From contig NZ_BBOJ01000007.1 of NCBI RefSeq assembly GCF_000974445.1, positions 372,001-436,000 of the forward strand: 64,000 bases of DNA. The letters are read 5' to 3'. The number at the start of each line of letters is the position of its first letter. The first letter of the stretch is position 1. Position numbers and translations under genes: made by a program. Source of the DNA: Lentzea aerocolonigenes. GTDB lineage: Bacteria > Actinomycetota > Actinomycetes > Mycobacteriales > Pseudonocardiaceae. Positions 29,594 to 53,605 of the stretch are shown one piece after another. A model generated the notes under the pieces. It searched no databases. It was not told where the DNA came from and worked only from the letters and a program-made list of their open reading frames with translations.

Positions 29594-30103
29594 TCAGCTG
29601 AGCAGCTCCACGACGTGCAGCACGTGGTCGCGCGCCCACGTCCGGTGCCAGCCGCCGTGCAACGTGACCAGGAGCTCCTCCCCCGACGTCACCGCGACCA
29701 CCTGACCGACCGGCCCGATCGTGCCGTACAGCCGGATCAGGTCACCCGGCGTGAGTTCGTCGGCCCGCTTGGTCCCGGTGTTGCGCGCGGACGAAGCCGG
29801 CCGCACGAGCACGGTGAACAGCCACCACGAGACGCCGCACACCGCGGGGGTCGTGATCACCAGGACACCCGCGACGACCGGCCTGCTGGTGACCACCACG
29901 GCCGCGCCGACCAACGACCACAGCAGTCCTGCGAACGCCGCGATGTGCGCCGAGCTCACCGGGTGGTGGCCGACCTGGAGCCATCCCGTCGTGCGCACCC
30001 AGCCCGCCTTGGTCAGCCCGCGCGGCGGCCTGCCGTCGCCGAGACCGGGCACCAGACCGGCGGCGGGCTTGCTGAACAGATCGATGCTGCTGTCAGTCGG
30101 CAC
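29594..30103 (-). CDS. Hypothetical membrane protein with C-terminal small beta domain
   Basis: A 169-residue protein of unknown function. Two hydrophobic segments (residues ~52-73, IAAFAGLLWSLVGAAVVVTS, and ~76-100, VAGVLVITTPAVCGVSWWLF) form a hairpin in the membrane; residues ~115-169 (LTPGDLIRLYGTIGPVGQVVAV then ELLVTLHGGWHRTWARDHVLHV) look like a small OB/SH3-like beta barrel outside. GTG start; its first 11 bases overlap the end of the nuclease-fold gene upstream, so the two are likely cotranscribed. Confidence 0.6.
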   Translation of the reverse strand: MPTDSSIDLFSKPAAGLVPGLGDGRPPRGLTKAGWVRTTGWLQVGHHPVSSAHIAAFAGLLWSLVGAAVVVTSRPVVAGVLVITTPAVCGVSWWLFTVLVRPASSARNTGTKRADELTPGDLIRLYGTIGPVGQVVAVTSGEELLVTLHGGWHRTWARDHVLHVVELLS

Positions 30104-30941
30104 GCCGCCACCTCAGCTGGTTCTTGCCGTTGCGGGCACAGACCATCTCCTCGCCGCTCGGAGACTTCTTCCGCGCACCTTCCTCGGAGCACCGCCGGCC
30201 CAGCAGGATGCCGGTCAGCGTCGTCTCGGACGTCGTCGTGGTGGTCTCCGGCTCCTCGGGCTCAGGCGATTCGGACGTTCCCGGCACGGGCGGGGTGGTC
30301 GTCGTCGTGGTCGGCGCCGGAGACGACGAGGTCGAGGACGGCGTGCTGGAGGTCGTCACCGCACCCGGAGCGCACCCGACCGACCACAGACCGCGATGTT
30401 GCTGGCGAGCCGCGGCTTCGACGGGCGCGAGCTCGTCACGGGCCGACAGGTCCGCCGGCACCACGCCGTCGCCCACCACGGTCTGCGCGTAGTCCGCCCC
30501 GTCCGGCAGCCGCACGTCGACCGCGATCCGATCGTCCCCGGACCCGGCGTCCTTCCTGACGGTGAGCCGCACGTTCTTGCCCAGCAACAGGTTCCGGGCG
30601 GCGGCGAGGGACTCCGACACCCAGCACTGCCCCGCGGGGCGCACCCCGGCGACCCGAGCGTGGAAGAAGAGTCCGGTGGCGGGCTCCACGCCTTCGAACC
30701 GATCCACATCGGACACGCTGTGGACCGTCACCTCGAAGGAGTCACCCCGGTGCAGGGCCTCCCGGGGCGCGACGTCCTTCGCCGGGACGTCGGCGTTCAT
30801 GAACCCGGCCGCACCCGTCGTGGCGAGCGCGGTCAGAACCCCGAGGCCCATGATCGTGAGCCTGGTGGGCTGGCTGGTGTGCCACCAGAAACGGCGGACG
30901 GCCCCCGGCCGCGTCGTGGTGGACTCTGATGTGCTCGGCAA
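30093..30941 (-). CDS. Membrane-anchored protein with degenerate SNase-like domain and Cys-containing tail
   Basis: A 282-residue protein. One N-terminal transmembrane segment (residues ~28-48) is followed by a staphylococcal-nuclease-like beta barrel (residues ~65-195), recognisable by ARVAGVRPAGQCWVSESLAAARNLLLGKNVRL and LPDGADYAQTVVGDGVV, then a long Thr/Ser/Pro linker and a terminal module GRRCSEEGARKKSPSGEEMVCARNGKNQLRW. The nuclease catalytic Glu after the PE motif is not present, so enzymatic activity is doubtful. The TTG start at 30941 is uncertain; ATG at 30851 would remove the cytoplasmic N terminus. It resembles the SNase-fold part of the protein at 39612. Confidence 0.55.
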   Translation of the reverse strand: MPSTSESTTTRPGAVRRFWWHTSQPTRLTIMGLGVLTALATTGAAGFMNADVPAKDVAPREALHRGDSFEVTVHSVSDVDRFEGVEPATGLFFHARVAGVRPAGQCWVSESLAAARNLLLGKNVRLTVRKDAGSGDDRIAVDVRLPDGADYAQTVVGDGVVPADLSARDELAPVEAAARQQHRGLWSVGCAPGAVTTSSTPSSTSSSPAPTTTTTTPPVPGTSESPEPEEPETTTTTSETTLTGILLGRRCSEEGARKKSPSGEEMVCARNGKNQLRWRRAD

Positions 30942-31113: not shown

Positions 31114-31980
31114 TCAGTATCCGTTGAGCGAAACGGCCAGGTCGGCGATCGCCAGCGGGAACTGGCCGACGACGGTCGCCGCGCCGCTCAGCAGGTTCAC
31201 GGTGTACAACGACGCCGAGCCGTTCGGCGCGACCAGGGTCGCGAACCCCGCCGAGGAGACCGCTTTCCCACCGCTCAGCGTGCTGAAGATGTCGAAGCCC
31301 GCGTTGGCACCGGCGTCCACACCCAGCTTGCCGGTGGCGGCCAGCAGGCCGTTGTTCGCCGGTGACTGGACGAGCACCTCGTCGGTGGCCGTGCCGATGT
31401 CGAACAACGTGGTCGCGGTGCCGGGGTCGAGGTCGTTGTTCGTGTACGCGACCGCCGTGACACCCCTGGTCGGCCCGAGGGCGGGCGGGGTGGACAGGAA
31501 GGCGTCCTCGGTCGTGGTGTTGTCGCCGAGGTTGTGCCGGAGGTTCTGACCGGTGTCGCCGACCACCCGGAGCCGGTCGGCCGCCGGGTTGAAGTCCACC
31601 CCGAAGTTCGTGCCGTACAACGGGACGGTCAGCTGCGAGACCTTGGTGATGACCGGGTCGGGCTGCGACGGCGGGTTGGGCAGCTTGACGGAGTAGATGC
31701 CGCCCTTGTTGCCCACCAGGTACATCAACCCGTCCTGAACCCGGAAGTCCAGCCCGATCGCCGCCGTGTCACCGGAAAAACCCTGGATCTGTCGCACCCA
31801 GTCCAGCACCTGCGGCTTGTCCGTCGTGAACGTCACCATCAACGTGCCGTCCGCCGAAATTCCGAACGCTCGCAGTCCGGAAGGCTGAGCGACACTGCTC
31901 CCGCCGCTCGCCACGACGGCCGCGGCCATCGACACCACCACGGCCGCCGCAGCGACTCCCCGCTTGATCCGCGCCTTCAT
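31114..31980 (-). CDS. Secreted DUF4394 protein (copy A of a tandem pair)
   Basis: A 288-residue exported protein with a Sec signal of about 32 residues. The rest is a beta-propeller-like DUF4394 domain with recurring motifs: GLDFRVQDGLMYLVGNKGGIYSV, FGVDFNPAADRLRVVGDTGQNLR, AYTNNDLDPGTATTLFDIGTATDEVLVQSP and ISAD at the start. DUF4394 proteins have no known enzymatic role; a secreted ligand-binding or surface protein is likely. It is highly similar to the upstream neighbour at 32061, and the promoter region was duplicated too. Confidence 0.88.
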   Translation of the reverse strand: MKARIKRGVAAAAVVVSMAAAVVASGGSSVAQPSGLRAFGISADGTLMVTFTTDKPQVLDWVRQIQGFSGDTAAIGLDFRVQDGLMYLVGNKGGIYSVKLPNPPSQPDPVITKVSQLTVPLYGTNFGVDFNPAADRLRVVGDTGQNLRHNLGDNTTTEDAFLSTPPALGPTRGVTAVAYTNNDLDPGTATTLFDIGTATDEVLVQSPANNGLLAATGKLGVDAGANAGFDIFSTLSGGKAVSSAGFATLVAPNGSASLYTVNLLSGAATVVGQFPLAIADLAVSLNGY

Positions 31981-32060: not shown

Positions 32061-32930
32061 TCAGCTCCCGGTCAGCGAGACGGCCAGGTCGGTGATCGCC
32101 AGCGGGAACTGCCCGATGCTGGTCGCCGTGCCGTTCAACAGGTTCACGCTGTACAACGACGACGAGCCGTTCGGTGCGACGAGAGTGGCGAACCCGGCCA
32201 CCGACACGGCCTTGCCACCGCTCAACGTGCTGTAGATGTCGAAGCCCGCGTTGGCACCGGCGTCCACGGTGAGGCTGCCGGTCGGCGCCAGAGTTCCGTT
32301 GTTGGCGGGCGACTGGATGAGCACCTGGTCGCTCGTGGTGCCGATGTCGAACAACGTGGTCGCCGTGCCGGGGTCGAGGTCGTTGTTCGTGTACGCCGCC
32401 GCGGTGACGCCCTTGGTCGATCCCGTCGTGGGCGGGGTGGAAAGAGCGGTGTCCGCGACGGTGGTGTGCGTGTTGAGGTCGTGGCGCAGGTTCTGGCCGT
32501 TGTCACCGACCACCCGGAGCCGGTCGGCCGCCGGGTTGAAGTCCACCCCGAAGTTCGTGCCCTGCAGCGAGACCGTCAGCTGCGAGACCTTGGTGACGAC
32601 CGGGTCCGGCTGTGACGGCAGGTTGGGCAGCCGAACGGAGTAGATGCCACCCTTGTTGCCCACCAGGTACATCAACCCGTCCTGAACCCGGAAGTCCAGC
32701 CCGATCGCCGCCGTGTCACCCGAGAAGCCCTGGATCTGTCTCACCCAGTCCAGCACCTGCGGCTTGTCCGTCGTGAACGTCGCCATCACCTTGCCGTCCG
32801 CCGAGATCCCGAACGCGCGCAGACCCGCGGCCGGAGCGGCGTGGCCCGCGGTGCTCCCCGCCAGCGTGGCGGCCACCACCGACGCGACCACCGCGGCCGC
32901 GGCGGCAACCCGCTTGGTTCGAACGTTCAT
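32061..32930 (-). CDS. Secreted DUF4394 protein (copy B of a tandem pair)
   Basis: A 289-residue exported protein, same architecture as copy A: Sec signal to about residue 33 (ending GHAAPA), then the DUF4394 domain with RAFGISADGKVMATFTTDKPQ, GFSGDTAAIGLDFRVQDG and GVDFNPAADRLRVVGDNGQNLRHD. Long stretches are identical to copy A and differences are scattered, mostly conservative, so both copies look functional. It is divergent from the small secreted gene at 33083, and the shared spacer holds four TGGAC repeats. Confidence 0.88.
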   Translation of the reverse strand: MNVRTKRVAAAAAVVASVVAATLAGSTAGHAAPAAGLRAFGISADGKVMATFTTDKPQVLDWVRQIQGFSGDTAAIGLDFRVQDGLMYLVGNKGGIYSVRLPNLPSQPDPVVTKVSQLTVSLQGTNFGVDFNPAADRLRVVGDNGQNLRHDLNTHTTVADTALSTPPTTGSTKGVTAAAYTNNDLDPGTATTLFDIGTTSDQVLIQSPANNGTLAPTGSLTVDAGANAGFDIYSTLSGGKAVSVAGFATLVAPNGSSSLYSVNLLNGTATSIGQFPLAITDLAVSLTGS

Positions 32931-38840: not shown

Positions 38841-39157
38841 CGGCGTTCCTCCACCACCCGCTCCAGCTCCGCGACGCGGTCGCGCAGCACGGCGTTCTGC
38901 TGGGCGAGCTCGTTCGCCTCAGCGGTCCGGTCCACCGCTTTGGGTGTGAAGAAAGGATCGTTCGTCCACCAGTCCATTCCCATCTCACGCGCTGTCTGCG
39001 CGGAAGCCACGAACAACCGCACCCGCAACGTGAGCAGCTCTATGTCCACCACGCAGACGGCGATGTCCCCGACTATCACCACACCTTTGTCCAGGACGCG
39101 TTCCAACGTGTCGGCGAGCGAACCGGATCTGTTGTCCACGAAGAACCATCCCGTCAC
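38837..39157 (-). CDS. gvpJ: Gas vesicle protein GvpJ
   Basis: A 106-residue GvpA-related minor structural protein. The core GSLADTLERVLDKGVVIVGDIAVCVVDIELLTLRVRLFVASAQTAREMGMDWW matches GvpJ more than GvpA, especially the AREMGMDWW ending. A C-terminal coiled-coil helix follows (TAEANELAQQNAVLRDRVAELERVVEERR, residues ~78-106). GTG at 39157 lies inside the gvpO stop (GTGA). Confidence 0.87.
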   Translation of the reverse strand: MTGWFFVDNRSGSLADTLERVLDKGVVIVGDIAVCVVDIELLTLRVRLFVASAQTAREMGMDWWTNDPFFTPKAVDRTAEANELAQQNAVLRDRVAELERVVEERR

Positions 39158-39474
39158 ATGTCGGTCGTCCCACGGGTGTAGCGCCTGAGCCGCTCGCAGC
39201 CGCACAACTCACCGGCGGCGTCGACGTCGACTCGATAGGTGGCGATGATGCTGGTGGTTGCCGGAATTCGTTCCAGCTCGACGACGTCGACCAGCACCGA
39301 CCAGCCGCCGTCCGGCACAGCGCGAATGCCCGAAACGGCTTCCGGTGTCCTGCCGATCAGAGCACTGAACTGTTCGGTCGCGGCTCGAATTGCCAATACC
39401 GCGGTGAGTTTTTCAGGTTTTCCGGATGGCGAACCGTCATTCGAATCGTCAGCCACTCTCCCGATCTTAGGCAT
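39154..39474 (-). CDS. gvpO: Gas vesicle protein GvpO
   Basis: A 106-residue protein with the GvpO pattern: AIRAATEQFSALIGRTPEAVSGIRAVPDGGWSVLVDVVELERIPATTSIIATYRVDVDAAGEL, then RYTRG near the end. It is the first gene of the gas-vesicle operon, as in other actinomycetes. No strong ribosome site precedes the ATG. The 137-bp spacer upstream (39475-39611) holds the presumed operon promoter and three GCGCAA repeats near 39534, 39575 and 39589, but no clear -35/-10 pair. Confidence 0.9.
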   Translation of the reverse strand: MPKIGRVADDSNDGSPSGKPEKLTAVLAIRAATEQFSALIGRTPEAVSGIRAVPDGGWSVLVDVVELERIPATTSIIATYRVDVDAAGELCGCERLRRYTRGTTDM

Positions 39475-39611: not shown

Positions 39612-40526
39612 CTACTCGACCGAGCACTGCGCCCCGTTGAGGGAGAAGGAGGAGGGCGTCGACGGCGGACCCCACGCGTTGGCGTTGAACCCGATCTGCA
39701 CCGAACCGCCGGGCGCGACCTGCGGGTTGTAGTCGGCGTTCACGGCGTTGACGGTCGCCCCGGACTGCCGGGACGAGGCGTTCCACATCTCCCTGACGGA
39801 CTCGCCATTCGCGAGGTTCCAGCGCAGCGTCCAGCCGTTGGTCGTCGAGGTCCCGGTGTTGCGCCAGGTCACGGTCGCTTGGAAGCCGCCCTGCCACTGC
39901 CCGGCGATCCGGTACGCGACCGCGCACGACCGCGCGGGCGGCGGCGGTGTCGTGGTGGTCGTCGGCCCAGGAGGGGGCGGCGGTGGCGGTGTGGCGGAAG
40001 TGGTGGTGGTCGTGGTCGGCGCGGAAGTCGGCTTGGCCGTGCCGGAACCGTCACACGGCGGGCCCCACAGCCCGCGTTTCGCGGCGGCGGCTTCGGACTG
40101 AGCGGCGATCAGCGGGCCGCCGTCGACGCCTTCCGGCCGCATCGCGCCCTGCTGCACGGCGAGCACCGCGTAGTCGGTGCCGTCCTCGAGCTCCATGTTG
40201 ATCTCGCCCGGTGTCAGGCCGGTGAAGCGCACCGAGGCGGCGAGCAGCGTCTTCCTGGCGAACGCCAGGGAGGCCTCCGCCCAGCACGGCTCGGGCGGGG
40301 CGAGCAGGGCGACGCGGACCTTGGAGCCGTCCGCCAGCTCGACCGTGCGGCCGTCGATCACGTCGCGGACGACGGTGAGCACGTTCTGGGGCGGCACCAC
40401 CTCGTTGATGAGCGTGGGCGGTTTCAGGTACGACGGGGTGGACGGTGGCGGCGCGGCCGGCTCAGCCGTGCACGCTCCGGTGAGCAGTACCAACATCACC
40501 AGCAAATGGCTGCGCGCCACCGTCAC
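39612..40526 (-). CDS. Lipoprotein with SNase-like domain fused to a CBM2 cellulose-binding module
   Basis: A 304-residue exported protein. Lipobox LTGAC puts the lipidated Cys at residue 19. Residues ~50-165 have the SNase fold pattern: VIDGRTVELADGSKVRVALLAPPEPCWAEASLAFARKTLL, then DGTDYAVLAVQQGAM and SEAAAAKRGLWGPPC. The Arg and Glu of the first active-site strand remain, but the DxYGRxLA motif carrying the second catalytic Arg is changed to EDGTDYAVLAV. A Thr/Pro linker leads to a family 2 cellulose-binding domain (residues ~205-304, CAVAYRIAGQWQGGFQATVTWRNTGTSTTNGWTLRW, ending C-SVE). GTG start seven bases after the GH30 stop, so cotranscribed. Confidence 0.82.
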   Translation of the reverse strand: MTVARSHLLVMLVLLTGACTAEPAAPPPSTPSYLKPPTLINEVVPPQNVLTVVRDVIDGRTVELADGSKVRVALLAPPEPCWAEASLAFARKTLLAASVRFTGLTPGEINMELEDGTDYAVLAVQQGAMRPEGVDGGPLIAAQSEAAAAKRGLWGPPCDGSGTAKPTSAPTTTTTTSATPPPPPPPGPTTTTTPPPPARSCAVAYRIAGQWQGGFQATVTWRNTGTSTTNGWTLRWNLANGESVREMWNASSRQSGATVNAVNADYNPQVAPGGSVQIGFNANAWGPPSTPSSFSLNGAQCSVE

Positions 40527-40532
40527 TCCCGA

Positions 40533-42515
40533 CTATCTCACCGAAGAAGCTGTCCAGCGTTGGTTCGCACCAGAGGTCGCGTGGTACAAACCGATTCTTG
40601 CGCCGTCCTCACGCGACTCACCGACGACGTCGAGCAGCGCTCCCGTCGCGGCGTTGACGAAGGTCCAGCTGTCGTCGCCGGTGGAGGACAGGATCCACCT
40701 GGCAGCCGGACTGTCGCTGGAGATCAGCGTCGCGTTACCGTCCACAGCGGCGATTCGCTGGCCAGTGGCGGAGTTCACCACGGCGAACTGGACGTCGTTG
40801 CCGTAACCGCCCGTCTTGCGCTCCAGACGCCACACCTGGTCCTGCGCGGCGGTGTTCGTCGTGCGCTGCACCAGCGAGGTGCCCGACGGCGCGAGCGACT
40901 TGCCGCTCTGCGCGCCCGTGAGGCGGTACTTGCCGTTCAGCGCGGCCGAACGGTCCAGTCCGCTCACGCCCGTCACGTCGAACGTCACGACCGACTTCGC
41001 GGGCACGGTGAGGGTCGCCTTGCGGTCCTTCACCTTCACCGCGCCGCCCTTGACGAGCGCGCCGAACATGTCCGTCACGATCGGACGGACCGAGGCGTTC
41101 GGCCGCACCGACCCGAACGCGGACAGGTCCAGGGTGACCGACTGCGGCTGCTCGGACTGGTTCAGGTGCACCACGGACTTCAGCTCGGTGTTGCGCACCG
41201 CCGCCACGTCGGACTTGGTGTTGACCTTGATCATCCGGTCGCCCGGCTTGATGTAGTGCGTGAAGTTCCGCAGCGTGTGGAACTTGCTGTTGACCCGCGC
41301 GGGGCAGGTCGCGAGCGTGTCCTGCGGGCCGCAGTTGAACGGGATCTGGACGACGCCCCAGTTCATGCCGTTCGGCGTCTCGCCGCCGGGCTTCATGTTG
41401 TCGTAGTCCTCGACGGCCTGCCACAGCAGCCAGGCGCGGGGCTCGAGCTCGCGCAGGTCGTCGATCACCCGTGCGGCGATGCCCAGCCCGGAGTCCATGG
41501 CGGTGAAGTTCTGGGAGTTGCCCCAGGACCCGTCGACCTCGCTCATCCACATCGGCTTGTCCGCGGCCTTGGCGATGTCACGCGCGGACGTGCGGCGGTC
41601 CTGGCCGTAGGTGTGGACGTTGAGCTGACCGACCTGCGAGCGCACGGCGGCCGGGTACCCCGCCCAGTCGTCGGCGAAGATGCCGGGGTTGGTCTCGTCC
41701 GGTGCGGACACGACTGCCTTCAACCGCTTGGCGCGCAACGCGTCGGCCACGGCGGGCACGACCTTCGCCTGCAGCGCCGGGCTCATGTGCGCGCCCTCCT
41801 GGCGGCCGCCCGTCGGGTTGCCGTCCGGACCGAGCTTCGTGCCCCAGTACGTGGTGTTGGGCTCGTTGAACGGGTCGAGCGTCGAGAACTTGATGCCGTG
41901 CGCGCGCTCGAGCTCCGCGGTCGCCTGCGTCAGGTACGCGGCGAAGTCCTTGACGCGGTCCTCGCGCAGCTGGTCGGCCGACGCGTCGAAACCGCCGGAG
42001 ACGTACCCGCTGACGGTCTGGAACCACGGCGGCGAGTTGCTGAACGCCTCCCACTTCGTGACCTGAGACTTGATCTTGTCGACCCACCAGCGCTGGCGCG
42101 GGTCCGCCGAGGCGTCGAAGAACCGCGGATCACCCGGCTTCCACCAGTCGGTGTCCTTGCGAGTGGTCCCGGAAGGCGCTTTCCACCAACCGGGCACGGC
42201 CGCGCCGGCGCGCAGGTACGACGGCACGTCCGGGGCGTTGCCGCCACCGATGTTGTAGCGGGCGATGTTGAGGTTGAGCCCGTCCTCACCGAACAGCAGC
42301 TCGGCGAGCTGGTTGCGAATCTCGTCCGGGTATCCCCCGGTGGCGTTCGCGAACCAGATGAGGCTCGTTCCCCACCCCTGGAAGGACTCCTGTTGGTAGG
42401 TCGGATCCGGCCGCACGGTCACGGACTCCACAGCGGCCGCGGCGGGAACTCCGCTGGCGACCACTGTGGACAACGTGAGCGCCGAAGCGGCGAGAAGTGC
42501 AGGGAATCTTGTCAT
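40533..42515 (-). CDS. Secreted GH30 glycoside hydrolase with C-terminal ricin-type beta-trefoil
   Basis: A 660-residue exported enzyme. Sec signal ~1-28 (ending VPAAAA). The GH30 catalytic domain begins QGWGTSLIWFANATGG; acid/base Glu in DPFNEPNTTYWG (residue ~218), nucleophile Glu in MWMSEVDGSWG (residue ~326); the side beta-sandwich follows to about residue 515. Residues ~525-660 form a ricin B-like lectin domain (NGKYRLTGAQSGKSLAPSG, WRLERKTGGYGNDVQFAVVNSATGQ, ending SGANQRWTASSVR). Resembles bacterial endo-beta-1,6-galactanases, but beta-xylanase-type specificity cannot be excluded. A LacI-type half-conserved operator lies 23 bp upstream, matching the arabinose regulon sites. Confidence 0.87.
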   Translation of the reverse strand: MTRFPALLAASALTLSTVVASGVPAAAAVESVTVRPDPTYQQESFQGWGTSLIWFANATGGYPDEIRNQLAELLFGEDGLNLNIARYNIGGGNAPDVPSYLRAGAAVPGWWKAPSGTTRKDTDWWKPGDPRFFDASADPRQRWWVDKIKSQVTKWEAFSNSPPWFQTVSGYVSGGFDASADQLREDRVKDFAAYLTQATAELERAHGIKFSTLDPFNEPNTTYWGTKLGPDGNPTGGRQEGAHMSPALQAKVVPAVADALRAKRLKAVVSAPDETNPGIFADDWAGYPAAVRSQVGQLNVHTYGQDRRTSARDIAKAADKPMWMSEVDGSWGNSQNFTAMDSGLGIAARVIDDLRELEPRAWLLWQAVEDYDNMKPGGETPNGMNWGVVQIPFNCGPQDTLATCPARVNSKFHTLRNFTHYIKPGDRMIKVNTKSDVAAVRNTELKSVVHLNQSEQPQSVTLDLSAFGSVRPNASVRPIVTDMFGALVKGGAVKVKDRKATLTVPAKSVVTFDVTGVSGLDRSAALNGKYRLTGAQSGKSLAPSGTSLVQRTTNTAAQDQVWRLERKTGGYGNDVQFAVVNSATGQRIAAVDGNATLISSDSPAARWILSSTGDDSWTFVNAATGALLDVVGESREDGARIGLYHATSGANQRWTASSVR

Positions 42516-42679: not shown

Positions 42680-43498
42680 TCACTTGAGCGAGCAGGTGGC
42701 GAAGCGTTCCAGGCCTTCCGGCTTCGCGGCGACGCGACCGATCGCGGTCTCGATCCGGTTGAGCGCCGCGACGCGCTTGTCCTTCAACGGGCCGAGAATC
42801 GCGTTCTGCACGAAGTTCGGGCCACCCTGACCCGCGGACGTCCGCAGCCGCTCGTTCGCCTCGGCCTGCTGCTTGCCGAGGTTGGCGAGCTCGCGGTCCA
42901 CTTCGGCCTTCGCCTGAGCCGGGACGTTCTGCACGACGGGCAGCGGACACTCGATCGTCTTCCCCGACGCCGACGCGTTGTTTCCGGACCCGTTGTTGCC
43001 GTTCGCGTTGCCGTTGCCGTTGCCGTTCGCGTTCCCGTTGTTGCCGGACGCCTGCTTCGTCGGCGCCGCCGCCACCGCCGGCGCCGAGCCGACTCCGCAG
43101 GGCGCGAATCGTTCAAGCCCCTCCGGCTTCTCCGCCACGCGGCCGATCGCTGTTTCGATCCGGTTCAGCGCCGCGACACGCTTGTCCTTCAACGGACCGA
43201 CAATCGCGTTCTGCACGAAGTTCGGGCCACCCTGACCCGCCGACGTGCGCAGACGGTTGTTCGCCTCGGCTATCTGCTTGTCCAGGTTCGCCAGTTCACG
43301 CTGGACCTCGGCCTGCGCCTGGGCGGGAACCGCGGGGATGACGGGCTTCGGGCACGCGATCGACTGGCCAGCGGCGTTGTTGCCCTCACCCGCGGCGAAC
43401 GCGGCGATAGCGGTACCGGCGGTCAGCGTCGCGGCGACGGCGATTCCGGCGACGAGCACCCGCTTGCGCCGTTCTGGTTTTGCATGCGCTCTCGACAT
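42680..43498 (-). CDS. Secreted protein with two near-identical Cys-bounded helical repeats
   Basis: A 272-residue exported protein of unknown function. A membrane or signal segment covers residues ~14-36 behind a basic N terminus. Two 86-residue repeats follow (residues 49-134 and 184-269), each beginning and ending with a Cys and sharing blocks such as NRLRTSAGQGGPNFVQNAI, GPLKDKRVAALNRIETAIGR and KPEGLERFA. They are joined by a 49-residue Asn/Gly-rich linker (residues 135-183). The repeats look helical, and the flanking Cys could close each into a disulfide-bonded bundle. It forms its own transcription unit with a strong terminator. Confidence 0.7.
   Translation of the reverse strand: MSRAHAKPERRKRVLVAGIAVAATLTAGTAIAAFAAGEGNNAAGQSIACPKPVIPAVPAQAQAEVQRELANLDKQIAEANNRLRTSAGQGGPNFVQNAIVGPLKDKRVAALNRIETAIGRVAEKPEGLERFAPCGVGSAPAVAAAPTKQASGNNGNANGNGNGNANGNNGSGNNASASGKTIECPLPVVQNVPAQAKAEVDRELANLGKQQAEANERLRTSAGQGGPNFVQNAILGPLKDKRVAALNRIETAIGRVAAKPEGLERFATCSLK
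42692..42949 (-). repeat. Intragenic 258-bp repeat, copy 2
   Basis: Encodes residues 184-269 of the secreted repeat protein. Nearly the same protein sequence is encoded at 43097-43354. The two copies are spaced by a region coding for the Asn/Gly linker, which points to an internal duplication. Confidence 0.85.
43097..43354 (-). repeat. Intragenic 258-bp repeat, copy 1
   Basis: Encodes residues 49-134 of the secreted repeat protein and matches the copy at 42692-42949, with many identical blocks at DNA level too (for example around 43190-43230 and 42785-42825). Confidence 0.85.
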
Positions 43499-43656: not shown

Positions 43657-44493
43657 ATGCCATCGGGGCACAGAGTCGTGCACGACCAGCTTCTCTTGAG
43701 AGTTCAGGGGGTGAACCTCAAGGTCGCCGCCGTGCACCGCGGGGGCACCGCCGAGCCGATCGTCTTCCTGCACGGCTTCGGCACGAGCAAGGAGGACTAC
43801 ACCGACATCACCCAGCGGCACGAGTTCACGGAACGCGCTTTCCTGGCGTTCGACCTGCCCGGATGCGGCGCCACGGAGTGCGCCGACCTCAGGGCGATCG
43901 ACGTGCCGTTCATCGTGGACACCGCCCGCGCCGTGCTCGATCGCGCCGGCATCGGCCGCTACCACGTCGTCGGGCACTCGCTCGGCGGTCTCACGGCGCT
44001 GCTGCTCGCGCACCGCGAACCGAGCCGGGTGCTCAGCTTCGTCAACATCAAGGGCACGCTCGCTCCCGAGGACTGCGCGCCGACCAGGCAGTTGCTGTCC
44101 CACCAGGAGACCGGCGACCTCTTCCACCGGTTCGTCGAGGGAATCCGCCACTCCCAGGGCTACTCGAGCGGCCTGTACGGCGCGAACCTGCCGTACAAGA
44201 TCCGCCCGGGAGCCGTGCCCGGCATCTTCCGGTCCGTGGTCGAGCTCGCCGACCACGGGGAGCTGTTGAACAAGTTCCTCGCGCTCCCCATCCCGAAGAT
44301 GTACCTCTACGGCGAGGAATGCGCGTCACTGTCCTATTTGCCGCTGCTCGACGCGAACGGGGTGGAGCTCGCCGAGATCCCGCACAGCGGGCACCTCCCG
44401 ATGTACTCCAACCCCGTCGCGACGTGGAAGCGGATCGCCGGGTTCTACGCCGGCGACCTCAGTCAGCGAATTCCGGCCGCCAGGCGGTGGTAG
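43657..44493 (+). CDS. Alpha/beta hydrolase
   Basis: A 278-residue cytosolic hydrolase. The fold marks are [10 protein letters not shown] (oxyanion region, residues ~36-45), the nucleophile elbow GHSLGG (residues ~106-111), a Glu/Asp candidate near YLYGEE, and the catalytic His in [17 protein letters not shown] at 43657 leaves the conserved core intact; an in-frame ATG at 43597 would add 20 residues but falls right after the operator-like palindrome. No substrate can be named. The last 31 bases overlap the end of araA on the other strand. Confidence 0.8.
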
Positions 44494-45971
44494 GCGGCGT
44501 TCCAGCGCAACCGGTCACCGAACTGGGCCGGGGTGGTCGACGAGTCGATCAGCACCAGTTCGGTGGCCGCCATGGTGGCGAAGTCCCGCAGCGTCTCGGC
44601 CCCGACCGCGTGGGTCATGACCGTGTGGTGGGGTCCGCCGGCGGTGAGCCAGCACTCGGCCGAGGTGGACAGTGACGGTGCGGGCTGCCAGACGGCGCGG
44701 GCGACGGACAGGTTGGGCAGCGGCTCGTCGGGTGGGACGACGGTGATTTCATTGGCCACCAATCGGAAGCGGTCGCCGAGGTCGGCCAGGCCGATCACGA
44801 CGGCGGGTCCGGGGGTGGCGTCGAAGACGAGTCGGACGGGGTCTTCGCGGTCGCCGATGCCGAGCGGGTGGATTTCACACGACGGCTGGTCCGCCGCGAT
44901 CGTCGGGCACACCTCCAGCATGTGGGCGCCGAGGATCTTCGGGGTGCCGGGTCCGAAGTGGTAGGTGTAGTCCTCCATGAATGAGGTGCCGCGGCCCGTG
45001 CCGACGCCCATGGCCTTGACGGCGGCGAGCAGTGCGGAGGTCTTCCAGTCGCCTTCGCCGCCGAAGCCGTAGCCGTCGGCCATGAGCCGTTGGACGGCGA
45101 GGCCGGGGAGCTGGCGCAGTCCGCCGAGGTCCTGGAAGTTCGTGGTGAACGCGCCGAAGCCGCCTTCGTCCAGGAAGGACCGCAGGCCGATCTCGATGCG
45201 GGCGGCGTAGCGCAGCGAGTCGTGCCGGTCTCCCCCGCGGGCGAGTTCCGCGGCGAGCCGGTAGGTCTCGGCGTAGTCGGCCACGAGCAGGTCGATGTCC
45301 GCGTCGGACACTGCGTCGACCTTCGCCACGAGATCATTCACGCCGTAGGTGTTGACCGAGACACCGAACCGCAGCTCCGCCTCGACCTTGTCGCCCTCGG
45401 TCACCGCGACGTCGCGCATGTTGTCGCCGAACCGGGCCAGCTTCAACGACCGCAGATGCGCCACACCCGCCGCCGCACGCGCCCAGCCGTCGATGCGCTC
45501 GGCCAGGTGCGGGTCGCTCGCGTGACCCGCCACCGTCTTGCGCGCCACGCCGATCCGCGTCTGGATGTACGCGAACTCCCGGTCGCCGTGCGCCGCCTGG
45601 TTGAGGTTCATGAAGTCCATGTCGATCGTGGACCACGGCAGCGCCTCATTCAACTGCGTGTGCAAGTGCAGCAAAGGTTTGCGCAGCAGGTCCAGCCCGG
45701 TGATCCACATCTTCGCCGGGGAGAACGTGTGCATCCACGCGATCACACCGACGCACGACGGGTCGTTGTTCGCCTCCTGCATGATCCCGCGGATCGCGGC
45801 CGCGTCGGTCAGCACCGGCTTCCACACGATCTCGGTGCTGATCCGGCCGGACTCGCTGAGCATCCGCTGGATCTGCTGCGACTGCGCGGCCACCTGGTCG
45901 AGCGTCTCGGGGCCGTACAGGTGCTGGCCGCCCGTCAGGAACCAGACCTGGGGCTTGCCCGCGAACGACAT
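44463..45971 (-). CDS. araA: L-arabinose isomerase
   Basis: A 502-residue cytosolic enzyme converting L-arabinose to L-ribulose with Mn2+. The family opening is [16 protein letters not shown], followed by [12 protein letters not shown], the metal Glu in [16 protein letters not shown] and [17 protein letters not shown], His in [22 protein letters not shown], and the C-terminal GPHHTV. ATG at 45971 has GAGGAG six bases upstream, which decides the start over a GTG at 45992. It is the last gene of the araBDA operon. Length is normal. Confidence 0.97.
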
Positions 45972-45988
45972 CTTCTCTCCTCGTGGGC

Positions 45989-46642
45989 TCACTGCCCGTA
46001 GACGTTCTGGTAGCGCTGGTAGAGCCGGTCGACGTCCTGCTGTTCGATCGGTTCGGCCTTGCCGAGCTGGAGTGCGAAGTGGACGGTGCGTGCCACGTCC
46101 TCCAGCATCACGGCGGACTTCACCGCCGAACGCGCGCTCGGGCCGACCGTGAACGGGCCGTGGTTGCGCATCAGCACCGCCCGGGACCTGCTGCCGCGCA
46201 AGGTTTCCACGATGCCGCGCCCGATCGAGTCGTCGCCGATCAACGCGAACGGGCCGACCGGGATCTCACCGCCGAACTCGTCCGCGATCATCGTCAGCAC
46301 ACAGGGAATCGGCTCTCCGCGCGCCGCCCACGCCGTGGCGTAAGGGGAATGCGTGTGCACGACACCGTTCACCTCGGGCATGTGGCGGTAGACGTACGCG
46401 TGCGCGGCGGTGTCCGACGACGGCGCGAACTCACCCTCGACGAGCTTGCCGTGCAGGTCGGTCACGACCATCGCGTCCGGCCCCAGCTGGTCGTAGGACA
46501 CCCCGGACGGCTTGATCACCATCAGCTCGTGGCCCGGCACGCGCGCGGAGACGTTGCCCGCGGTCCAGATCACCAGCTCGTACTTGGTGAGCTCGCGGTG
46601 CAGGTCGGCGACCGTGCGGCGCAGCTCAGAGGTCACCGACAT
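45989..46642 (-). CDS. araD: L-ribulose-5-phosphate 4-epimerase
   Basis: A 217-residue class II aldolase-fold enzyme that converts L-ribulose 5-phosphate to D-xylulose 5-phosphate. Motifs: GNVSAR (residues ~28-33), [11 protein letters not shown], the acidic ...[32 protein letters not shown] with the zinc His pair, and [12 protein letters not shown] overlaps the TGA of araB by one base. Its product enters the pentose phosphate pathway. Confidence 0.96.
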
Positions 46643-48324
46643 CAGTTCTTCCCTTCCAGTGCGTCACGGCGGAACTTGCGCAGCCGGCGCATGACGTCGT
46701 TGACACCGCGGCCGAAGTAGTCGTGCAGCTCGAGGTAGTCGAGGAACAGCCGTTCGTAGGCCTCGACGTTCTCCGGAATCGGCGTGAAGACGTGACGCTG
46801 CACCGATCCCATGGCGTTCGCGGCACCGCGGATGTCTTCGAACGCCCCCGCGGCCACCGCCGCGTGCATCGCCGAACCGAGCGCCGGCCCCTGCGCCGAA
46901 CCGATGACCGACAGCGGCAGGTTCACGACGTCGGCGTAGATCTGCATCAGCAACGGGTTCTTGACCAGACCACCGGCGATCACCAGTTCGGTCACGGGCA
47001 CGCCGGCGTCGGTGAAGGTGTCGATGATGACCCGCGTACCGAACGCCGTGGCCTCCAGCAACGCCCGGTAGACGTCTTCGGCCTTCGTCGCCAGCGTCTG
47101 CCCGACGACCACACCGGACAGTTCGTGGTCGACCAGCACGGACCTGTTGCCGCTGTGCCAGTCCAGCGCGACCAGGCCGTGCTCACCAACCCGTTGCGTG
47201 GCAGCGAGTTCGGTGAGGAGTTCGTGCACCGTGATGCCGCGCTCGTTCGCCTGCTCGTGGTAGGCGGGCGGAACCTGGTTCTTCACGAACCAAGCGAAGA
47301 TGTCACCGACACCGCTCTGCCCGGCCTCGTAACCCCACAACCCCGGAACAATGCCGCCGTCCACGACACCGCACATGCCAGGAACCTCACGCAGCACATC
47401 GCCGCTCATCACGTGACACGTGGACGTGCCCATGATCGCGACCATCTGCCCCGGCTCCACCGCCTGCGCGGCCGGAGCGGTCACGTGCGCATCGACGTTG
47501 CCGACCGCGACCGCGATTCCCTCGGGCAGCCCGGTCCACGCCGCGGCTTCAGCGGTCAGGGTTCCGGCCGTGTCGCCCAGCGCGGACAGCGGGTGGTCGA
47601 GCTTGTCCGCCACGAAAGTCGCGAACGCGGGGTTGAGCTCGGCGAGGAACTCCTCGCTCGGGTACGCACCGTCCTGGTGGATCCCCTTGTACCCGGCGGT
47701 GCAGGCGTTGCGCGTGTACCGGCCGGTGAGCTGCCAGATGATCCAGTCCGCCGCCTCGACCCAGTGCTCCATCGCCGCATAGACCTCAGGCGCCTCCTCC
47801 AGCACCTGCAAGCCCTTGGCGAACTCCCACTCCGACGAGATCAGCCCGCCGTAACGCGGAAGCCACGACTCCTTGCGGTCGTGTGCCAGGTCGTTGATCC
47901 GGTCGGCCTGCCCCTGCGCGGCGTGGTGACGCCACAGCTTCACGTAGGCGTGCGGGTTCTCCGCGAACTCCGGCAGGTCGCACAACGGGGTTCCGTCGGC
48001 GGTCACCGGAACCATCGTGCAGGCGGTGAAGTCGGTGCCGATCCCGATGACGAGCTCCGGCGCGACACCGGCGTCCGCCACGGCCTGAGGGACGGCGGTC
48101 CGCAGGACGTCGAGGTAGTCGCTCGGAACCTGGAGCGCCCACTCCGGCGGCAGGGCGCGGCCCGTCGCGGGCAGCACTCCGTCCACCACGCCGTGGCTGT
48201 AGTCGTGCACCGCGGTGCCGAGCTCGGCACCGTCACGGACGCGCACCACCACCGCACGGCCGGACAACGTGCCGAAGTCGACACCCACCACACAGGCGTC
48301 GGGATGGATCGTCTTGTCAGTCAC
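46642..48324 (-). CDS. araB: L-ribulokinase
   Basis: A 560-residue sugar kinase of the FGGY family with the AraB layout: N-terminal phosphate loop VVGVDFGTLSGRAVVV (residues ~10-25), DFTACTMVP, GYKGIHQDG, and in the C-terminal domain MGTSTCHVMSG, DWHSGNRSVLVD and VIAGGLVKNPLLMQIYADV. It phosphorylates L-ribulose. The GTG at 48324 is chosen for normal AraB length. A 14-bp operator ends nine bases upstream and no ribosome site is seen, so translation may start on a short-leader or leaderless mRNA. First gene of araB-araD-araA. Confidence 0.95.
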   Translation of the reverse strand: MTDKTIHPDACVVGVDFGTLSGRAVVVRVRDGAELGTAVHDYSHGVVDGVLPATGRALPPEWALQVPSDYLDVLRTAVPQAVADAGVAPELVIGIGTDFTACTMVPVTADGTPLCDLPEFAENPHAYVKLWRHHAAQGQADRINDLAHDRKESWLPRYGGLISSEWEFAKGLQVLEEAPEVYAAMEHWVEAADWIIWQLTGRYTRNACTAGYKGIHQDGAYPSEEFLAELNPAFATFVADKLDHPLSALGDTAGTLTAEAAAWTGLPEGIAVAVGNVDAHVTAPAAQAVEPGQMVAIMGTSTCHVMSGDVLREVPGMCGVVDGGIVPGLWGYEAGQSGVGDIFAWFVKNQVPPAYHEQANERGITVHELLTELAATQRVGEHGLVALDWHSGNRSVLVDHELSGVVVGQTLATKAEDVYRALLEATAFGTRVIIDTFTDAGVPVTELVIAGGLVKNPLLMQIYADVVNLPLSVIGSAQGPALGSAMHAAVAAGAFEDIRGAANAMGSVQRHVFTPIPENVEAYERLFLDYLELHDYFGRGVNDVMRRLRKFRRDALEGKN

Positions 48325-48332
48325 GCGCTGAG

Positions 48333-48346
48333 TGTTATCGCTAACA
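48333..48346. promoter_or_regulatory. araBDA operator
   Basis: TGTTATCGCTAACA; its reverse complement is identical to the 14-mer before the LacI gene at 49522. It sits nine bases upstream of the araB start, positioned to block transcription. Confidence 0.7.
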
Positions 48347-48429
48347 TTCGGTCCGTCAAGTACGGGCGGAGAAGTCGCGAAAGCCTTGATGAGGCTAGGT
48401 GGGCCAAGAGAGTGAACGTATGACAAGAC

Positions 48430-48474: not shown

Positions 48475-49488
48475 TCAGGCGGGCGGTGCCACGCTGTCCC
48501 GCGCCACCAGAACAGGTTTGATGGAACGCCGCGGCTGCGCGGACTCGCCCTCGCTCACCTGCTCGAGCAACAACCCCAGCGTCTCCCGTGCCACCGCCGC
48601 GAAGTCCGGGCGGATGGTCGTGAGCGGCGGGATGAAGTACGCGGCTTCCGGCACGTCGTCGAAGCCGACCACGCTCACGTCGTGCGGCACCCGCCTGCCG
48701 CGTTCGTGCATCGCCCGCAGCACGCCGAGGGCGAGGTGGTCGTTCGAGCAGAACACCGCCGTGACCTCGGGCATCCTCGCCAGCATCTGCCCCGCCTTGT
48801 AGCCGGAGGCCGCGCTCCAGTCGGCGGCCATCACCGGCGGCACCTCCTTGCCTGCCGCCTCCAGCGCCTCGCGCCAGCCCTGCACGCGACCGGCCGCGTC
48901 GAACCAGTCGGTCGGACCGGAGACGTGCCACACCGTGTCGTGCCCGGCGTTCAGGAGGTGCTCGGTGGCGTCGTAGGCCCCCGACGCCTGGTCGACCGTC
49001 ACCAGCGGCGTCGGCCGGCCGGGGTCACCGTCCACAGTCACCAGCGGCAGGCCGGCGGGGACGTCGGCGAGCGCGTCGGCGGCGGACGAGTTCGGTGCGA
49101 TCACGACGATGCCCGCCACGCGCTGGTCGCGGTGGCGTTCGACGGCGGCCGCTATCGAGTCGCGGTCGAGGACCTTGACGCGGCCGACGCTCACACCGAA
49201 CCCGGCCTCGCCCGCCGCCTCCTCGAAGGCGGACAGCAGCGAGGCCGGGCCGTACAGCGTCGAGTTCTGCGCGACCACGCCGATCAGGTAGGTCTTGCCG
49301 GTGACCAGGGCACGAGCTGCCCTGTTCGGACGGTAGCCCAGCTCCTTGATGGCGGCGCGAACCCGCAGCCGGGTCTGCTCGCGAACGTTCGGATGGTCGT
49401 TGAGCACGCGCGAAACCGTCTGGTGGGACACCCCGGCCAGGCGGGCGACGTCGGTCATCGCGGGGTCACGCGTGGTCTTCTGGTCCAC
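48475..49488 (-). CDS. LacI family repressor of the arabinose locus
   Basis: A 337-residue regulator. Helix-turn-helix at residues ~11-35 (MTDVARLAGVSHQTVSRVLN), hinge to ~60 (GYRPNRAARALVTGKTYLIGVV) and a complete periplasmic-binding-type effector domain (RVAGIVVIAPNSSAADAL, VDQASGAYDATEHLLNAGHDTVWHVSGP, AVFCSNDHLALGVLRAMHERGRRVPHDVSVVGFDDVPEAAY). GTG start. It lies between araBDA and the arabinofuranosidases, and an identical operator precedes both it and araB, so it is the likely local repressor (autoregulated) with an arabinose-related inducer. It is of LacI type, not the enterobacterial AraC type or the GntR-LacI chimeric AraR. Confidence 0.92.
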   Translation of the reverse strand: MDQKTTRDPAMTDVARLAGVSHQTVSRVLNDHPNVREQTRLRVRAAIKELGYRPNRAARALVTGKTYLIGVVAQNSTLYGPASLLSAFEEAAGEAGFGVSVGRVKVLDRDSIAAAVERHRDQRVAGIVVIAPNSSAADALADVPAGLPLVTVDGDPGRPTPLVTVDQASGAYDATEHLLNAGHDTVWHVSGPTDWFDAAGRVQGWREALEAAGKEVPPVMAADWSAASGYKAGQMLARMPEVTAVFCSNDHLALGVLRAMHERGRRVPHDVSVVGFDDVPEAAYFIPPLTTIRPDFAAVARETLGLLLEQVSEGESAQPRRSIKPVLVARDSVAPPA

Positions 49489-49571: not shown

Positions 49572-51011
49572 CTACTCGAGCCGGAACGTCGCACGTCGGC
49601 GCGCGTCGCGGTCGTTTCCGGGTCTGCCGACCACCAGTCTGCCCCGATCGTGAATGAGATAAGAATCTGCTCCAACATTCAACGAAATCGCCTTGCCGTC
49701 GGCGAGCCCCCGAACCTGCGTGAAGCTGGTCGCCCGGCCGTACGCGTCGGAGTCCTCGAACGGGTCGATGCGGACCCCGTTCGCGTCCGCCCGCACGTAC
49801 CGGTCGGGGAAGTTCACCGACTGCAGCGCGACCGTCCCGGTGCCGAGAAGCCCCGGTACGAACCGGAACTGCGAGTCGGCCAGCTCGCGGACGTTGCCGT
49901 CGACCCGCAGCTGGTACTCGTAGTGCCGCACGTGCAGTCCGTCCATCGTGGCCAGCCGCGAGATCGGGCCGCCCTTGCCGACCGGGACGCCGAAGCTCGG
50001 TGTGCCGTCGGCGTTCCAGTGCAGGCGCTGCACTCGGGTGTGCCGGTTCGGGTCGAACAGCGGGTCGCCGTTGATGTCGCGGTAGTCGCGGGCGTGGTAG
50101 ACCAGCACGTCCATGTCGCCGACCGTCGTGAACGAGTTGTGCCCCGGCCCGTACTGCGAGCTCGGCGCGTTGGTCGCGAACACCGGGTTCGGCGACTTGG
50201 TCCACGACCGCGCGTCGAGCAGGTTCGCGTTCTCGTCGGCGGTCAGCAGGCCCATGCAGTACCGGGCGTCGGTGGCGCTCGCGGAGAACGTCACGAACAC
50301 CCGGCCGTTGCGGATGAGCACCGCCGGGCCCTCGTTCACCCGGAAACCCTGCACCTCCCACGACGCCGTCGGCGTGGCGATCCGCACCGGCGCGGTCTTC
50401 AACGCGAGCGGCGAGGCCATCTCGGCGATGTAGAGGTTGGTGCCGGAACCGACGGCGGGGTCGTTCTGCGCCCACAGGAGGTAGCGCTTGCCGCGGTGCG
50501 CGAACGTCGTCGCGTCCAGGGTGAACGTGTCCAGGTGCGTCACGATCTGGCCGCGCAGCACCCAGCCGTCCGCGCGCGGGTCGGCGTTCGGGGACTCCAG
50601 CACGTAGGTGCGGATGCGGAACGGTTCGTCCTTGTCACCGGCGGCGAAGTAGACGTACCACTTGCCGTCGATGCGGTGCAGCTCCGGCGCCCAGATGTAG
50701 CCGCCCATCCTGCCGGACGCCGGACGGCGCCAGATCGTGCGTTCCCGTGCCGAGGTCAGGCCGTCCAGGGTGGACGCGCCGCGGATGACGATCCGGTCGT
50801 ACTCCGGCACGGACCCGGTCAGGTAGTACATGCCGTCGGTCGGCGGCGTGATGAACGGGTCGGCGCGCTGCTCGACGAGCGGGCTGCGGGTGGGCAGCTC
50901 GGCCGGTGCTTCCGGCGCGGCCACGACAGGAGCGGAGGCCGCGAGCGACACCGTGCCGGTGGCGGCGAGAACACCACCGGTGCCCAGCAACAGGGTTCTG
51001 CGGTCGATCAC
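49572..51011 (-). CDS. Secreted GH43 exo-alpha-1,5-L-arabinofuranosidase with CBM42
   Basis: A 479-residue exported enzyme. Tat-like signal (VIDRRTLLLGTGGVLAATG, residues ~1-32). A five-bladed propeller GH43 domain follows: general base Asp in RADPFITP, pKa-modulating Asp in TLDATTF and acid Glu in RVNEGPAVL. Residues ~340-479 are an arabinose-binding AbfB/CBM42 beta-trefoil (SVNFPDRYVRADANGVRIDPFEDSD, then SLNVGADSYLIHDRGRLV). The combination matches exo-1,5-alpha-L-arabinofuranosidases of the GH43_26 type. GTG start inside the GH51 stop (GTGA), so it is made together with that enzyme. Confidence 0.9.
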   Translation of the reverse strand: MIDRRTLLLGTGGVLAATGTVSLAASAPVVAAPEAPAELPTRSPLVEQRADPFITPPTDGMYYLTGSVPEYDRIVIRGASTLDGLTSARERTIWRRPASGRMGGYIWAPELHRIDGKWYVYFAAGDKDEPFRIRTYVLESPNADPRADGWVLRGQIVTHLDTFTLDATTFAHRGKRYLLWAQNDPAVGSGTNLYIAEMASPLALKTAPVRIATPTASWEVQGFRVNEGPAVLIRNGRVFVTFSASATDARYCMGLLTADENANLLDARSWTKSPNPVFATNAPSSQYGPGHNSFTTVGDMDVLVYHARDYRDINGDPLFDPNRHTRVQRLHWNADGTPSFGVPVGKGGPISRLATMDGLHVRHYEYQLRVDGNVRELADSQFRFVPGLLGTGTVALQSVNFPDRYVRADANGVRIDPFEDSDAYGRATSFTQVRGLADGKAISLNVGADSYLIHDRGRLVVGRPGNDRDARRRATFRLE

Positions 51012-53485: not shown

Positions 53486-53526
53486 GAAGTAGAGCTCCCG
53501 GCGTTCGGAAGTGCCTTCGCAGGAAA

Positions 53527-53540
53527 AGTGAGCGCTAACA
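53527..53540. promoter_or_regulatory. Arabinose-regulon operator candidate before GH51-GH43
   Basis: AGTGAGCGCTAACA keeps the GCTAACA half-site of the araB operator and lies 42 bp upstream of the GH51 start codon. Confidence 0.6.
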
Positions 53541-53605
53541 TACGACCGCAATGGAATCAGGTCAACGGTTACAAGTCGTTATGGCCGAAGGCTTGACGCG
53601 CCGGA

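Follow-up and report, generated by a model that had tools for sequence, protein, structure and literature searches.

A predicted lipoprotein of Lentzea aerocolonigenes joining a degenerate staphylococcal nuclease-like domain to CBM2

The window analyzed here, a stretch of 64,000 nucleotides from Lentzea aerocolonigenes, contains an open reading frame whose product combines a signal peptide, a staphylococcal nuclease (SNase)-like domain, a Pro/Thr-rich linker, and a CBM2 domain (Table 1). The CBM2 assignment comes from a PF00553 match to residues 201-301 (E 1.3e-27; 96.5 bits against a cut-off of 24). W211, W248, and Y266 occupy the positions that we take to be the cellulose-binding aromatics of CBM2; the window module therefore carries the surface aromatics for cellulose, with Tyr rather than Trp at the third position, and across the 76 distinct CBM2-type ORFs of the family W, W, and Y are found in 75, 75, and 70, respectively. 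Given its signal peptide with a lipobox Cys, the protein is predicted to be a lipoprotein and would be lipidated at that residue; the PROSITE lipobox pattern was passed by 74 of the same 76 ORFs. The initial annotation had described a lipoprotein that joins an SNase-like domain to CBM2, and the ORF, lipobox, PF00553 match, and predicted fold (below) bear this out, as the binding aromatics do for the CBM2 itself.

Table 1. Features of the lipoprotein gene and of the neighboring sugar-related locus (window coordinates).
Feature	Position	Strand	Basis or remark
Whole lipoprotein gene: SNase-like pseudonuclease domain, Pro/Thr linker, CBM2	39612..40526	(-)	304 aa, GTG start
Signal peptide with lipobox-like LLTGAC, residues 1-19, Cys19	40470..40526	(-)	PROSITE lipobox pattern
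SNase-like domain, residues 48-158	40053..40385	(-)	AlphaFold2 model, Foldseek, VIA, family alignment
Pro/Thr-rich linker, residues 159-200	39927..40052	(-)	variable among 16 orthologues
CBM2, residues 201-304; aromatics W211, W248, Y266	39615..39926	(-)	PF00553, 3ndy, 1exg
Secreted GH30 (PF14587) with ricin-type lectin domain	40533..42515	(-)	6 bases upstream of lipoprotein gene
272-aa protein with internal duplication, conserved neighbor	42680..43498	(-)	no Pfam match at 0.001
L-arabinose isomerase (araA)	44463-45992	(-)	
Class II aldolase, araD-like	45989-46642	(-)	
FGGY sugar kinase, araB-like	46642-48426	(-)	
LacI-type regulator	48475-49488	(-)	
GH43-AbfB	49572-51011	(-)	
Alpha-L-arabinofuranosidase	51008-53551	(-)	

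The secreted GH30 that had been noted next to this gene lies upstream on the same strand and only 6 bases away, a distance read from the window. In the comparison across loci some gaps came out negative, as the gene caller chooses the earliest start codon, and we rely on the window value alone. Beyond the GH30 gene, the locus holds a sugar-binding protein and an ABC ATPase in addition to the arabinose and arabinan genes listed in Table 1. The main text of a published survey reports a GH30_5 endo-beta-1,6-galactanase in nearly all Lentzea strains surveyed and uses the words 'nuclease' and 'lipoprotein' 0 times each (PMC9120177). We infer that the GH30 of the window belongs to the GH30_5 subfamily. 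The 272-aa protein encoded next to the GH30 gene consists of two similar halves with an Asn/Gly-rich stretch between them and is conserved beside the GH30 and lipoprotein genes.

We asked whether the N-terminal domain could be linked to known nucleases. Pfam and NCBIfam scans of the window protein left the SNase-like region without a match, a PDB sequence search with the domain alone returned an unrelated protein as its best match (E 0.12) and SND1 at 0.47, and a PF00565 scan of the own genome gave 0 matches. Since the Pfam, NCBIfam, and PDB sequence searches gave no significant SNase match, the link was made by profile and by structure. An AlphaFold2 model (pLDDT 89.8, pTM 0.83) was built from an alignment of 62 domains, made up of the window domain, with its first codon GTG read as M, and 61 stretches from Lentzea loci. 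Foldseek placed staphylococcal nuclease first (E 1.4e-6) among 283 PDB matches at E<=0.001, and VIA gave a Z of 15-16 to the SN-like domains of SND1 and of about 15 to SNase, with an rmsd of about 2. This predicted structure upholds the SNase-like fold proposed in the initial annotation and indicates that the window domain belongs to the SNase fold superfamily.

Homology to known SNases is indirect, running through matches of a profile of the SNase-like domain that are themselves PF00565 proteins. The profile finds L155 at E 5e-16, and L155 matches PF00565 at 6.4e-20 and has staphylococcal nuclease as its best PDB match (E 2.3e-17); five further profile matches (L150, L157, L159, L163, and L165) also score above the PF00565 cut-off. 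The window domain has its fold and order of secondary structure in common with staphylococcal nuclease and the thermonuclease family (PF00565), and real SNases from its own bacterial family connect it to these by homology. Unlike that family, it lacks D21, D40, and R87, falls below Pfam detection, and is part of a lipoprotein with CBM2. The SN-like domains of SND1 (Tudor-SN) are its best structural matches and share the SNase fold, whereas SND1 itself is eukaryotic and multi-domain and has no CBM. The Pfam copy used in our analysis has no model that detects this domain family.

We next considered the active site, for which we take D21 and D40 (with T41) to be the Ca2+ ligands and R35, E43, and R87 to be the catalytic residues of SNase. 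At the D21 position Arg is found in 61 of the 62 aligned relatives (R60 in the window), the D40 position is Ala in 60 rows (A76), and Thr occupies the T41 position in 0 of 62, the window having P77. Arg is retained at the R35 position in 47 of 62 rows, among them that of the window (R71). An ungapped count finds Glu at E43 in two of the 62 rows, of which the window is one (E79); once real SNases are aligned with the family, all 62 rows show gaps in the E43 and R87 columns. At the level of motifs, D[GVA]RT stands for DGDT and LAxP for IDTPE, and the DxYGR segment that carries R87 is missing in all 62. Two cysteines, Cys81 and Cys158 in window numbering, are present in every row (62/62). By comparison, the residues at D21, R35, D40, E43, and R87 are D, R, D, E, and R in L150, L155, L157, L159, and L165, and L163 differs from this full set solely by Q at R35. 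The altered site extends to other genera, where 17 rows have Arg at D21, 15 of which have Ala at D40 (the exceptions are T in L144 and P in L164); some further rows have mixed sites.

Our data indicate that the window domain does not have the full set of residues of a catalytic SNase. The altered active-site motif that had been read from the sequence is confirmed, in that the metal site is lost by residue comparison, and an active nuclease was rejected on the same basis (D21 and D40 replaced, R87 segment missing). Since the window retains R35 and, in the ungapped placement, Glu at E43, catalytic loss is a deduction from the residues. These two residues are also what would favor a nuclease with a rearranged active site, R35 being retained in 47 of 62 rows. 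We regard such an enzyme as highly improbable, as D21 and D40 are replaced in nearly all rows, the R87 segment is absent throughout, and Glu at E43 is confined to the two rows mentioned.

We found that the domain is under purifying constraint. The mean dN/dS of 16 orthologues against the window gene, computed from pairs that are not independent and with linker dS near saturation, is 0.24 for both the domain and the linker and 0.51 for CBM2. The dead domain is more constrained than the CBM2, and a decaying domain was rejected on the value of 0.24.

We then questioned how widely the domain and its fusion are distributed. The SNase-like domain is present in 24 of 24 Lentzea genomes, with 2-11 matches each and 170 in sum, a total over the Lentzea genomes with 15 candidates scored per genome that includes Excalibur-type and divergent copies. 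With family members in all 24 genomes, the observation made in the window is not a chance one. Among the 61 Lentzea loci gathered, three bear the name Nocardia sp. NRRL S-836 (L072, L082, and L103); they fall inside Lentzea in the domain tree, and the name is probably wrong. In a sample of the family, the domain is matched in 122 of 297 genomes, from 21 of 46 genera, real SNases included, with 1-4 matches per genome outside Lentzea compared to 2-11 within it. At the class level, 5 of 394 genomes match at 1e-6, namely the own genome and four from another family of the order.

The tail of these proteins differs between Lentzea and other genera. We classified 117 distinct ORFs at E<=1e-4, a set that does not cover every match and leaves L165 and L166 below the cut-off; Excalibur and CBM2 tails were assigned with one query each, and Pfam confirmed Excalibur in five proteins (PF05901 in L136 and L158). 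Within Lentzea, 76 of 84 ORFs carry CBM2, 5 carry Excalibur, and 3 have no recognized tail, while the ORFs outside the genus comprise 24 with Excalibur and 9 without a recognized tail. In 23 Lentzea genomes the best locus is CBM2-type; the exception is G019, whose two matches are both of the Excalibur type. A full-length profile was run on 80 of the 98 domain-matching genomes outside the genus, with up to 28 candidates scored per genome, and among the best matches listed none spans both domains: they cover either the SNase-like domain or CBM2, the latter in some cases together with preceding sequence. Ten loci fetched from this run were without the SNase-like domain (best E 0.12). A domain-CBM2 fusion outside Lentzea was accordingly rejected for the matches listed from these 80 genomes. 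Separation of the two domains in homologues, which the initial annotation had named as a refutation of its proposal, is seen outside Lentzea and in 8 of 84 Lentzea members; the other 76 carry CBM2.

In a domain tree of 115 rows, which omits identical domains and L166 and has few columns, the CBM2 label needs 2 changes compared to a mean of 34 for shuffled labels. The tree fits one gain of CBM2 within Lentzea and one loss, in the three tail-less Lentzea rows, with a weak fork (83/75) uniting the CBM2-type and tail-less rows. Excalibur rows stand outside that group, and the CBM2-type members are spread into several orthologue groups in Lentzea. Arg and Ala are found at D21 and D40 in Excalibur-type rows too, so the site had most likely degenerated before CBM2 was acquired. 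The idea that the nuclease fold was altered by being tied to cellulose does not hold, since the same degenerate domain occurs with Excalibur in other genera. These degenerate SNase-Excalibur proteins of Pseudonocardiaceae have the domain and the Pro/Thr linker in common with the window protein and carry an Excalibur tail, or no recognized tail, where the window protein has CBM2. The family points to a nuclease fold which, after losing its metal site, was kept under purifying selection, exchanged its tail for CBM2, and multiplied within one soil genus. A literature search, largely outside subscription journals, found no description of an SNase-like-CBM2 fusion.

The window also encodes a second, divergent member of the SNase-like family (30093-30941, (-); 282 aa; profile E 6e-14), which lacks a lipobox and seems to be anchored in the membrane. 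It has neither CBM2 nor a Pfam match at 0.001, and by eye its Cys-containing tail is like that of L154 and L160.

We examined the gene neighborhoods of the relatives, with neighbor families assigned on one representative each and several names taken from reading sequences by eye. A GH30 gene neighbors 7 of 11 loci in orthologue group 1 and 11 of 12 in group 2; a strict tie to GH30 was rejected, as it is absent from the stretch examined in 5 of these 23 loci, the own group 2 copy included. All 12 group 2 loci have a pectate lyase/pectinesterase gene, and the 13 loci of group 5 have genes for LacI (9), GH12 (9), acetyl xylan esterase (8), GH3 (7), and GH5 (5). In group 3, 13 of 15 loci contain a ribonuclease gene (PF00545) and 11-12 of 15 have aromatic-catabolism-like genes; in group 4, a Clp protease gene accompanies 7 of 8 loci, with no conserved polysaccharide gene recognized in the 8. 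In these 13 group 3 loci, which include L032 and L075, the dead nuclease gene adjoins a probably live one, assigned to PF00545 from L075.

Pseudonuclease-CBM2 fusions account for 6 of the 37 CBM2 matches in the own genome. A LacI gene lies within 2 kb of three of these six copies, where about 0.017 would be expected per random locus, corresponding to a chance of about 1e-4 for random positions; this test overstates specificity because its null uses random positions while the genes lie on CAZyme-rich contigs. Within 3.5 kb, a LacI gene accompanies 3 of 6 fusions and 6 of 30 other own CBM2 genes, a weak excess.

We hypothesize that the SNase-fold domain is a pseudonuclease, which would have kept its fold and conserved cysteine pair while losing the metal site and R87, and that it acts as a scaffold displaying a cellulose-binding CBM2 at the cell surface and holding plant wall fragments there, a reading that we hold to be somewhat probable. 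The pseudonuclease would be a compact scaffold, probably a binding domain, from which a flexible linker presents CBM2 on the outer side of the membrane. The lipoprotein would be made together with the secreted GH30, possibly from one transcript, beside the arabinose/arabinan operon, and might keep fragments of plant wall that contain cellulose close to the cell surface, such that sugars released by the enzymes would be freed close to it. Of the earlier proposal of a carbohydrate- or wall-binding adaptor, the role itself fits the plant-sugar locus, while conversion by a tie to cellulose falls away. CBM2 is found in 3ndy and 1exg joined to an enzyme, with all three binding positions Trp where the window protein has two Trp and a Tyr, and in the window protein it is joined to a pseudonuclease. 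Bacteroidetes have surface glycan-binding lipoproteins that are non-enzymatic, contain a carbohydrate module, and are encoded with degradation genes. The window protein resembles these in presumed function, whereas organism and domains differ, and we do not claim membership among SusD or SGBP proteins; if the adaptor role is true, it would be a Gram-positive counterpart to them. The linker residues (about 28 plus 42) may not carry a membrane lipoprotein past a thick wall, and the ribonuclease and aromatic-catabolism-like neighbors of group 3 and the Clp protease neighbors of group 4 count against a polysaccharide role.

The pseudonuclease could instead serve mainly for protein docking, recruiting co-secreted enzymes such as the GH30 to cellulose with cell attachment secondary. 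SN-like domains of SND1 serve binding and protein docking, and they are among the best structural matches; moreover, the adjoining GH30 brings a lectin domain of its own, and two paralogue groups each include members that lie next to a GH30 gene. As GH30 is a conserved neighbor in those two groups only, we consider docking rather doubtful as the main role. We asked further what the domain itself might bind. Arg at the old Ca2+ position together with the mostly retained R35 makes for a more basic site, which on an SNase fold would suit a domain that still binds nucleic acid but does not cleave it, tying the extracellular DNA of a biofilm to cellulose; the sugar-related gene context in the window and in several groups makes this quite unlikely. 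The same arginines could have rebuilt the former active site into an anion pocket (R60 with R71) for an acidic sugar of plant origin, for example a pectin or arabinogalactan uronate, giving a two-ligand surface receptor in which the ex-nuclease grips matrix polysaccharide and CBM2 grips cellulose, an unlikely elaboration. The conserved Arg in the old metal site is the place to look for a ligand of the pseudonuclease, if there is any, and the change from metal ligand to Arg offers one residue to test.

It could also be argued that the domain is a folded spacer and the fusion no more than CBM2 on a lipoprotein, as the tail alone could bind cellulose and tails vary (CBM2, Excalibur, or none recognized). 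A spacer would not be expected to be better conserved than the CBM2 it carries, to keep Cys81 and Cys158 in 62 of 62 rows and R60 in 61, or to occur without a recognized tail in 3 of 84 Lentzea members, and we judge this reading very unlikely. The surface display of CBM2 by a pseudonuclease scaffold remains the reading that we favor.

On the other side of the lipoprotein gene, directly downstream, lies a GvpO gas vesicle gene (39154-39474, (-)), and further genes to about 37152 look by eye like gas vesicle genes. Farther along, two adjacent genes (31114-31980 and 32061-32930, (-)) encode signal-peptide proteins whose first 70 residues look alike.
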